From Thermococcus indicus (lineage in GTDB: Archaea > Methanobacteriota_B > Thermococci > Thermococcales > Thermococcaceae): DNA of 64,000 nucleotides. Below are positions 2,290 to 8,020 of this stretch, piece by piece. Below the pieces are notes generated by a model. It ran no database searches. It saw only the letters and a program-made list of their open reading frames with translations, and was not told the origin of the DNA. How positions within the stretch are numbered: the stretch's first letter is position 1; every line of letters starts with the position of its first letter. Made by a program: the position numbers and the translations under genes. The stretch lies in contig NZ_CP040846.1 of NCBI RefSeq assembly GCF_006274605.1, positions 868,001 through 932,000 on the forward strand. Direction: 5' to 3'.

Positions 2290-4871
<2,582 letters not shown>

Positions 4872-5006: not shown

Positions 5007-5399
5007 ATGGCTATCTGGCAGGGAAGATCACTCAAGAAGCCTTCGGGCGGAAGGATTATCCTCGCTAGGAAGAAGAGGAAGAGGGAGCTCGGAAGGGAGC
5101 CTGCTTTCACCAAGGTCGGCGAGGACAGGGAAAAGAAGAAGATAATCAGGACCTACGGCGGAAACAGGAAGGTCAGGCTCATCGAGGCCCTCTACGCCAA
5201 CGTCTTCGACGGCGGAAAGGGCAAGAAGGTCAAGATACTCAACGTCGTCGAGAACCCGGCCAACAGGCAGTACGTCAGGAGAAACATAATCACCAAGGGC
5301 GCTATCGTCGAGACCGAGGCCGGCAGGGCCATAGTCACCAGCAGGCCCGGCCAGGACGGCGTCGTCAACGCGGTTCTCATCAAGGAGGAGAGCGCCTGA
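5007..5399 (+). CDS. rps8e: 30S ribosomal protein S8e
   Basis: A component of the archaeal small ribosomal subunit, binding rRNA. The product is 130 aa and begins [15 protein letters not shown], the family's invariant N terminus. A Lys/Arg-rich stretch ([13 protein letters not shown]) and the conserved [14 protein letters not shown] follow. A frame upstream of this start exists, but the ATG at 5007 follows GAGGTGAG with good spacing and gives the standard length. The 3' end faces the AlbA-domain regulator gene, with a ~72-bp repeat between them. Confidence 0.96.
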
Positions 5400-5420: not shown

Positions 5421-5492
5421 TATCGTTAAGTACCGTCAACCTGAAAACTTTACGCTACCGTTAACTTTTCTGGCTTTACGATGGTTAACGAT
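5421..5492. repeat. left copy of a ~72-bp direct repeat flanking the regulator gene
   Basis: Aligned to the copy at 6784-6856, roughly 66 of 72 positions match, with one single-base gap. Each copy is bounded by an imperfect inverted repeat of about 15 bases (TA[T/C]CGTTAAGTACCG at one end, CG[G/A]T[A/G]GTTAACG at the other). This left copy overlaps the last codons and the stop of the gene at 5485. Confidence 0.9.
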
Positions 5493-6774
5493 GAACCATC
5501 TCGTACCTCCTCTGCGCACCTCTGCCTATGGCTCTTGCAAGGCCCAGGGCTTCGAGCTTTTCAAGCCTCTTTAACACGGCGGGCTTTGAGAGGCCAACGT
5601 ACTCCGCTATCTCTCCGCTCCTCCTCGGGACTGTCAGGAACTCAAGGATTTTCCTGTCAGTATCATCCAAAAGCTCGCCGGTTTTCTTCTTGAAGACCAC
5701 TTCAAAGCGGTTCGCACTGTTCTTAAACTCTACTTCCACGAGGCCGTGCTTCTTGCACTCCTCACGGATCAGTCTCAGACCGTAGCCGTACTTTTCGATG
5801 TAGCCCGCATCGTACATAAGTCCGCAGAGGTTCGGGTTCCTCGGCACGTGTTCGGGGTCTTCGAGATCCACTCCAGGCATCAGGCCCCCGGGGTTTCTTA
5901 TTACAAGCCTATCGGGATGAATGAAAATCCTGACGTCCGCGGGGATTGCGTAGTTCCTGTGGGCGAAGGCGTTTATTATCGCCTCCCTAACGGCCCTTAT
6001 GGGATACTCGGGCAGTTTGGTTCTCTTCGTTCCCATCACCACTTCTATCGTGCTGAACTGGGAAAGGAGCTCCGCGTACATCTCATCTATAACCTTCCAT
6101 ACCGGCCCCCTGAATTCCTTGCTCCACAGGGGTCTCTCTCCGTCCATTCTGACGATCCTGCCACCCGCGTGCGGTATGAACTCCTCGACATCGGTGAAAA
6201 ACAGTACCCCTGCATTCGTCAGCTTGTTCCCTTTAATCGCCTTTGCACTCCTACGGTAACGGTTCCAGTCTTCCTTCGGGATACGTCTGCCTCGCGCTCT
6301 CTCCACCGCCGAGAAAAACCACTCAACGTATTCTTCCTTCATCTCCGACAGCTCTGCCGCCGGGAACTCATCCCAGGTAACCGCCCCCAGCTCGGCTGAA
6401 AGCATGAGAATCTCCTGGATTGAAAGGGGCCTTATCCCGGGGCCTATCCTGATGTAGGCAACTCCACCTATGGAGCAGAGGTTCCGGGACTTTGGAACCT
6501 CTATGACAAGAACGTTTCTGCCACCAAGCTCAAGCACGTGGGTTTTTACCTGCAGAGGAGGGGTGACGTTCTGGAGTGAGGAGGATATCGTTTCCCTGGC
6601 CTTTTTGATGTCACATCCCAAAACATTGCCCTCGTCGCTCACACCTATCAGAATGTAGCCTCCGTCGGCGTTTGCCATGGCGCATATCTCTCTGGCGATT
6701 TCAGGCGTTGCCCTGCGTTTGAACTCTATCCTCTCATTCTCTCCCTGGCGAATGAGTGCCAGAAGTTCGTTCAC
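5485..6774 (-). CDS. AlbA_2 (Schlafen-like) domain ATPase / transcriptional regulator
   Basis: The N-terminal 130 residues are an AlbA_2 (divergent Schlafen-type) domain: ENERIEFKRRATPEIAREI, then ANADGGYILIGVSDEGNVLG, then RIGPGIRPLSIQEI. The middle (about 260-350) looks like a GHKL-type ATP-binding fold (REAIINAFAHRNY, RNPGGLMPGVD, YGYGLRLIREEC). The C terminus (about 368-425) is a winged helix (DRKILEFL...SGEIAEYVGLSKPAVLKRLEKLEALGL). Such proteins are usually transcriptional regulators, and some members belong to defence loci. The start is a GTG at 6774. A box A (CTTTTATA on the minus strand, about 6855-6862) lies at the far edge of the right repeat copy, so that repeat occupies the transcript start or leader and could be an autoregulatory operator. 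The gene stands alone between two direct repeats. Confidence 0.8.
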   Translation of the reverse strand: MNELLALIRQGENERIEFKRRATPEIAREICAMANADGGYILIGVSDEGNVLGCDIKKARETISSSLQNVTPPLQVKTHVLELGGRNVLVIEVPKSRNLCSIGGVAYIRIGPGIRPLSIQEILMLSAELGAVTWDEFPAAELSEMKEEYVEWFFSAVERARGRRIPKEDWNRYRRSAKAIKGNKLTNAGVLFFTDVEEFIPHAGGRIVRMDGERPLWSKEFRGPVWKVIDEMYAELLSQFSTIEVVMGTKRTKLPEYPIRAVREAIINAFAHRNYAIPADVRIFIHPDRLVIRNPGGLMPGVDLEDPEHVPRNPNLCGLMYDAGYIEKYGYGLRLIREECKKHGLVEVEFKNSANRFEVVFKKKTGELLDDTDRKILEFLTVPRRSGEIAEYVGLSKPAVLKRLEKLEALGLARAIGRGAQRRYEMVHR

Positions 6775-6783
6775 GTCCCTGAT

Positions 6784-6856
6784 TACCGTTAAGTACCGTC
6801 AACCCTGAAAACTTTACGCTGCCGTTAACTTTTCTGGCTTTACGGTAGTTAACGGT
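6784..6856. repeat. right copy of the ~72-bp direct repeat, upstream of the regulator start
   Basis: It starts TACCGTTAAGTACCG and ends CGGTAGTTAACGGT, which are nearly reverse complements of each other. It contains a further TTAAC/GTTAA half site in the middle. It lies 10 bases before the GTG of the regulator and just inside its box A. The position suits a repressor site, and the palindromic ends suit a dimeric DNA-binding protein. Confidence 0.9.
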
Positions 6857-6871
6857 ATAAAAGAAGCGCGG

Positions 6872-7951
6872 TCAGAGCTCCAGCTCGTCCCTGTACTTCC
6901 TCAGCTCCCTCTCCATTATCCTCCTAGCCTGCTCCTCGACCATCGGTTTAACGAGCTCTATAACGCGCTCCTTCAGCTCGTCGAGTCCCTCACCGTTGAG
7001 CGCCGAGATTCTGAGGGGTTCGAGGCCTTTGGCCCTGACGAACTCCTCGACGGCCTTGATTTTCTCCTCATCGGCTATGTCCACCTTGTTGAGGACGACG
7101 ATGAAGGGGAACTCCCCGAACTCGGCGTAGATTTCCTCGAACAGATGGGTCTGCTCTTCAATTGGATAACCGCAGTACTCGCTGGGGTCGAAGATGTAGA
7201 CGATGACCTTTCCGAGGTGCTTTAAAGCGAGGATGGCCTGCCTCTCGACCTCGTTCCTCTCGCTCAGGGGTCTATCAAGCAGCCCGGGAGTGTCTATGAC
7301 CTGGTATTTCAGGTAGTGCTCCTCGAACTGGCCAACGTTTATGCCCTTCGTTGTGAAGGGGTAGCTGGCGACCTCGGGTCTGGCGTTCGTCAGAACCCTG
7401 AGGAGCGTGCTCTTGCCGACGTTGGGATGGCCGGCTATCACGACCGTCGGAAGGTTGAGATCAACGACCGGGAGGTCTTTGAGGACGTTTCTGGCCTGGT
7501 TGAGGTACTCGAGGTCATCTGCTATATCCCTGATGACGTCGGCGACGCGGCCGTAGAACTGCCTTCGGAGCCTTGACATCTCGTCCGGGTCGCGCGAGTA
7601 TCGTATCTTCTCGACGTAGCGCTGTTCGAGGTTTCTAATGGTTTTTATGGCCCAGTTCACGTGGGCCAGGGAGCGGTGGAACTGGTCGCGGTCAACGAGC
7701 GTATCGACCAGCTCCCTGTAGAACGGGGGAAGTTCTGAAACCCCCGGTGTCCTGTCCAGCAGTTTCCTCAGGTTGTCGCGGATGACGTTGGAGATCGTTC
7801 TGATTCTCAGCTCCTCCCTCTGCCTGGCCTTGGCCCTGGGGCCGCCCTTGGGGGTGAGGGCCGAGGCCGCCTTCTCCGCCCTCCTGAAGGCCTTGTCAAT
7901 AATCTCGTCAGCGGTAAGCACCGTCGGCATCTTTTCAAAGGGGTTCTTCAT
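6872..7951 (-). CDS. NOG1-family GTPase
   Basis: A ribosome-associated GTPase of the OBG/NOG1 class; the eukaryotic homologue acts in large-subunit assembly. Residues 1-165 are the helical N-terminal NOG1 domain. The G domain follows with G1 GHPNVGKST, a switch with SYPFTTKGINVG, G3 DTPGLLDRP, G4 NKVD and G5 ISALNGEG. A helical C-terminal tail (EEQARRIMERELRKY) closes the 359-aa protein. The ATG at 7951 is chosen because GAGGTGAG stands four bases before it; a GTG lies nine bases further up. The gene stands alone, in the same direction as its neighbours. Confidence 0.93.
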   Translation of the reverse strand: MKNPFEKMPTVLTADEIIDKAFRRAEKAASALTPKGGPRAKARQREELRIRTISNVIRDNLRKLLDRTPGVSELPPFYRELVDTLVDRDQFHRSLAHVNWAIKTIRNLEQRYVEKIRYSRDPDEMSRLRRQFYGRVADVIRDIADDLEYLNQARNVLKDLPVVDLNLPTVVIAGHPNVGKSTLLRVLTNARPEVASYPFTTKGINVGQFEEHYLKYQVIDTPGLLDRPLSERNEVERQAILALKHLGKVIVYIFDPSEYCGYPIEEQTHLFEEIYAEFGEFPFIVVLNKVDIADEEKIKAVEEFVRAKGLEPLRISALNGEGLDELKERVIELVKPMVEEQARRIMERELRKYRDELEL

Positions 7952-8020
7952 CTCTCTCACCTCTCCTCTTCTCTTTTCTCTCGCGGTGCTTAGCTTTTCG
8001 GCCGGGTATTTAAAGGTTCG

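Follow-up and report, generated by a model that had tools for sequence, protein, structure and literature searches.

In Thermococcus indicus, a single gene encoding a Schlafen-type regulator is bracketed by two direct repeats, R1 and R2, which are probably autoregulatory operators duplicated around the gene and between which general recombination would remove it. Binding by the 429-aa protein, repression of its own gene and recombination as the route of loss are predicted from the comparison of related genomes. The sequence-only reading of this locus had offered a choice between paired operators for the protein's own winged-helix domain and the ends of a small mobile cassette; both halves of this alternative are best retained together, whereas a transposon does not fit.

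The gene and its two repeats

Within the window, i.e. the whole stretch of 64,000 nucleotides analysed, open reading frames and a domain search place the SLFN_AlbA_2/HATPase_c_4/winged-helix gene at 5485-6774 on the reverse strand, with a GTG start and a product of 429 aa, between the convergent gene for the ribosomal protein S8e on the left (5007-5399, forward strand) and a NOG1-type GTPase gene on the right (6872-7960, reverse strand). In the encoded protein, Pfam delimits SLFN_AlbA_2 at residues 12-117, HATPase_c_4 at 280-361 and the winged helix at about 369-412, PF04326, PF13749 and HTH families scoring above cut-off. The composition and order of these domains match those of Schlafen/AlbA_2-HATPase-wHTH proteins, namely the COG2865-like combination of Schlafen, a minimal histidine-kinase-like ATPase and wHTH, as in DIP2311 of Corynebacterium diphtheriae (3LMM). 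The latter is the top solved relative by sequence as well as by predicted fold (a model of moderate confidence, mean pLDDT 70.5), with Schlafen proteins ranking behind. E12 and E17 are invariant in the protein alignment and a candidate third acidic residue, D47, is D, A or N across orthologues; the protein would be expected to depend on ATP. The codon at 6778-6780 is AGG in the window genome versus a conserved ATG in orthologues, the frame opening two codons later at GTG 6774, and the gene may thus be weakly expressed or in early decay.

According to PMC12839542, the Schlafen-kinase-wHTH architecture is associated with BREX and related defence loci in at least 1017 taxa, and a defence role would be possible for the present gene by virtue of its family. 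In contrast to those proteins, it is a lone archaeal gene among housekeeping genes, with no adjoining BREX genes and an RNase activity that is only putative. Its neighbourhood provides no direct support for a defence role; PADLOC retrieved only matches to pAgo-associated domains and CARF/Csa3-type wHTH. A viral origin was rejected, as no viral relative of the protein was found and the sole viral pattern match (L220) spans just 20 bases; plasmid and phage relatives fall below 60% identity.

The direct repeats of about 72 bp first reported at 5421-5492 and 6784-6856 proved to be real and correctly placed within 1-2 bases. By repeat alignment and half-site scoring, the downstream copy R1 covers 73 nt (5421-5493) and the upstream copy R2 covers 74 nt (6784-6857), the difference being a single base missing from R1. 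The two copies are 91% identical end to end and match at 93% over 71 aligned bases in the genome search (E = 9e-24). Near-palindromic ends had been noted for each, and each copy is as a whole an imperfect palindrome (in R2, arms of 35 nt, 83% complementary, with 4 nt between) built on the same dyad of six half-sites. As initially described, one copy sits at the gene leader and the other over the last codons: R2 lies directly 5' of the gene start, its last half-site (6787-6792) stopping 6 nt short of the ancestral start-codon position at 6778-6780, and R1 overlaps the 3' end, where one half-site constitutes the last Arg codon (5488-5490) and the TAA stop (5485-5487). Both copies have a half-site score of 35 out of 36, against a mean of 21.6 and a maximum of 26 for 2000 random stretches of the window. 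The 2.23 Mb genome contains no further copy and, with two copies only, a high-copy repeat or MITE is ruled out.

Spread of the element and states of the S8e-NOG1 site

A profile of the element, run against 115 phylum genomes of which 94 are Thermococcaceae, retrieved it from 42 genomes at E <= 0.001, with one to three copies per genome (two in the window genome). Orthologues of the gene occur in 22 of these genomes, each of which has the element; neither gene nor element was found outside the family among the phylum genomes searched. The element stands directly upstream of the gene in 22/22 orthologues, at S8e-NOG1 as well as at several other genomic sites, and, in the junctions compared, 6 nt separate its last half-site from the ATG position (the G029 junction stops just short of this position). 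Such constancy of position and start-codon spacing, together with the conservation of the half-sites, indicates a part of the gene's control region and not a transposon end, which strengthens the operator half of the original alternative, binding itself being predicted. As for the downstream copy, it is present in 13/13 cases at S8e-NOG1, where it encodes the gene's last Arg and stop as CGT TAA, and in 0/9 at other genomic sites, so that two copies are dispensable for function. As regards gene integrity, the orthologue in G055 (L065) is broken by in-frame stops and the one in G001 (L053) is split into two overlapping frames, as a result of either decay or a sequencing error.

Away from S8e-NOG1, the gene adjoins, among other neighbours, an ATPase_2/DUF234 gene in G005, G007 and G011, and a chelatase-like gene in G093. 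A search for the repeat beside unrelated genes, as initially proposed, was successful: in three genomes it occurs at the 3' end of ATPase_2/DUF234 genes (L134, 3931-4007; L141, 4025-4107; L135, 4058-4130), where it supplies or overlaps the stop codon (ending HYR*) with no trace of the AlbA gene. Several other solo copies away from S8e-NOG1 are remnants that lie next to pieces of the AlbA gene (G075, G082, G084).

At S8e-NOG1 itself, the arrangement repeat-gene-repeat is found in 13 genomes and a single repeat without the gene in 15, with the same outer flanks as in close occupied relatives, so that the empty site with one copy, which the sequence-only reading had suggested looking for, does exist. 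In G058, a spacer of 39 bp contains neither repeat nor gene and is the only repeat-free spacer measured, and the spacers of G030 and G070 look like decayed remnants. The flanks of solo and occupied sites abut the repeat directly with no further duplication, and the comparison of filled with solo sites disclosed no short target-site duplication. The NOG1 tree places the solo genomes G039 and G044 among occupied ones; in G039, the left part of the solo repeat resembles the downstream copy and its right edge the upstream copy, a mosaic of the kind expected from a crossover between the two copies. Besides, five genomes (L118, L119, L125, L130, L131) have another gene in this spacer, encoding about 305 aa with a double zinc ribbon, and the spacer seems to be a tolerated insertion site.

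The content of the locus does not simply follow its flanks. AlbA proteins from the same locus diverge more than NOG1 between G000 and G031 (73% vs 94% identity) or G047 and G031 (71% vs 95%), G031 and G029 displaying the opposite (98% for the AlbA protein vs 95% for NOG1), and a copy from another site and another genus is closer (G000-G005, 77% for the AlbA protein and 73% for NOG1). These mismatches indicate that the S8e-NOG1 locus exchanges its content horizontally, the simplest route for which would be recombination within the repeats or within the conserved genes on either side. That the site was colonised several times independently is not established, since the AU test does not reject monophyly of the S8e-NOG1 genes (p = 0.085). 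Recent gene conversion between upstream and downstream copies is not supported, since two upstream or two downstream copies from related genomes frequently match each other better than the pair at one locus does. In G093 (L145), a 103-bp direct repeat (80%; 4109-4211 and 5685-5787) stems from the neighbouring chelatase-like gene, part of whose 3' end is duplicated beyond the repeat-plus-gene unit.

A true mobile cassette, in which the palindromic repeats would be ends for a recombinase acting in trans, in an integron- or MITE-like manner, and the solo copies empty attachment sites, has to be weighed against these data. An integron attC cassette consists of a single gene whose stop lies close to an imperfect palindrome. 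Imperfect palindromes of 72-83 bp round a single gene, with the stop inside the repeat, recall this organisation, and the cassette would also account for the empty sites with exactly one copy and for the repeats beside unrelated ATPase genes. However, no integrase or cassette array, nor any recombinase in or adjoining the gene, is present in the windows examined, the element is primarily an upstream one and the only copy away from S8e-NOG1, copy numbers are low and several solo copies elsewhere are gene relics. A true cassette is therefore unlikely; as neither a recombinase nor a short target-site duplication nor a high copy number was seen, the mobility initially envisaged survives only weakly, in the form of a gene unit lost or exchanged by general recombination.

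Architecture and conservation of the element

The element is composed of six CGTWAA (TTWACG) half-sites in three pairs, in the order > > < > < <. Three spacing classes can be distinguished, namely 10-16-10-16-10, 9-16-10-16-9, where both outer spacings shorten together, and a class where the centre is widened from 10 to 19 or 21, i.e. by about one helical turn of DNA. The spacing class tracks the clades of the protein tree and is shared by both copies at one locus, barring single-base differences (G000, G041, G001). Upstream and downstream copies are equally intact, with mean half-site scores of 34.5/36 (n = 22) and 34.8 (n = 13), respectively, and all 35 gene-linked copies are intact. Solo copies score lower, at S8e-NOG1 (32.8, n = 15, p = 0.014) as well as elsewhere (32.4, n = 9, p = 0.003), the p-values being indicative rather than strict tests since the element sequences are related by descent. 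The divergence ratio of half-sites to spacers is 0.21 in upstream copies, 0.30 in downstream copies, 0.40 in solo copies at S8e-NOG1 and 0.61 in solo copies elsewhere; the alignment itself served to define the half-sites, which makes their absolute conservation in part circular but not the comparison of gene-linked with solo copies.

Solo elements, some of them nearly intact, persist in genomes without a close member of the gene family, which autoregulation alone leaves unexplained unless the gene losses are recent. This persistence in many genomes, as well as the elements at the 3' ends of ATPase genes, would be in line with a binding site or a terminator/insulator for another host factor, into which the gene would have inserted and which it would use secondarily. 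Such an origin is quite improbable, however, as the element goes with the gene at all sites with a fixed start-codon spacing, its spacing class follows the protein clade, solo copies decay relative to gene-linked ones, and gene and element are both absent from the phylum genomes searched outside the family.

The palindromes are strong, and Schlafen domains act as RNases in animals and some bacterial systems (PMC12839542). The repeat could act as RNA, forming long hairpins in the leader and at the 3' end of the transcript which the Schlafen-type domain might cleave or bind. Across the dyad, though, pairing reaches 87-91% in the half-sites and remains at shuffle level in the spacers (0.64 vs 0.65; 0.58 vs 0.57), and no covariation of spacer pairs emerged from the comparison with shuffled spacers. 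With symmetry confined to the half-sites, a protein-bound DNA site is favoured over a selected RNA hairpin. The repeat has no match in Rfam and its centre jumps by about one DNA turn, though the length of a loop could vary too; altogether, a role as RNA has very little likelihood. As for a chance duplication of a functionless intergenic element, the drift of solo copies would agree with it but it is barely credible in view of the conserved half-sites, the position fixed in 22 orthologues and the integrity of the gene-linked copies.

Operators as seams of gene loss and exchange

If R1 and R2 are autoregulatory operators, the gene product would most likely bind both through its C-terminal winged helix and, once bound, repress its own promoter, which would be located in or adjoining R2; both copies, possibly bridged by the protein, would be retained as predicted binding sites. 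Being direct repeats, R1 and R2 would in addition be substrates for general homologous recombination, by which the gene would be deleted and a single operator left to drift. The reverse reaction could bring in divergent versions of the gene, and DNA uptake followed by exchange across the conserved flanking genes could likewise import them. In relatives without the gene, a single decaying copy remains as a scar, so that the control sites probably double as seams of gene loss and exchange.

Paralogues at about 33% identity lend support to the operator reading of R1 and R2, as they possess gene-specific half-site arrays, with a spacing of 9-11 bp, spanning their stop codons. Several of these arrays precede a polysaccharide flippase gene, whose first about 70-71 bp recur between units. 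In the window genome, a tandem pair of AlbA_2-HATPase-wHTH paralogues at about 356.9-359.8 kb of G000:C1 (3640-6960 of L173, G000:C1:353000-365000) is preceded by the apparent 3' end and array of a third paralogue; the arrays across the stops differ there (AAAGGNNTCAT and GAGTCAA), with GATGCAA upstream. The winged-helix recognition segment varies with the array, SKPTASREL going with AAAGGNNTCAT, SRQTATRDL with GAGTCAA, SEATATRDL with GCCATCA and SKETAKRDL with GGGTCA, and near-identical bodies may carry different wHTH-array pairs; the physical linkage of wHTH and array accounts for part of their joint variation. Tentatively, Thermococcales Schlafen-wHTH genes might be units with private phased operator arrays over their own end or start, with recognition helices diversifying in step with their arrays, and with the arrays as recombination seams for tandem stacking, swapping and loss. 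Farther afield, a Thermoplasmata homologue (L067, about 2300-2400; 42% identity, partial) displays inverted TATCGT/ACGATA motifs 5' of a TATA-like stretch, which are possibly its own operator.

In the literature searched, no description was found of operator-like repeats flanking such a Schlafen-wHTH gene. Autoregulated wHTH regulators with multi-site operators likewise have a dyad operator at the gene's own start, with the difference that, here, a second predicted operator at the 3' end gives the stop codon and solo operators stay after gene loss. Following the passages of PMC3031569 that discuss Nobusato et al. (2000), restriction-modification genes insert with a long, variable target duplication, and the units considered in those passages resemble the present one in being single-gene, without recombinase and with direct repeats of about 70-140 bp. 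The likeness to such target duplication is found in the 103-bp chelatase-like gene end of G093 and in the duplicated flippase gene start of the paralogues, whereas the S8e-NOG1 repeat is the gene's own predicted operator and not a piece of a target gene, as target duplication in those passages would have it.

In terms of biology, this locus would show how the control sites of a single gene without a recombinase can mediate both its gain and its loss. It also offers a test bed, namely a Schlafen-type regulator from a hyperthermophile with a defined, though predicted, DNA target and with solo operators in relatives as controls, and the helices and arrays of the paralogues suggest a readable recognition code.
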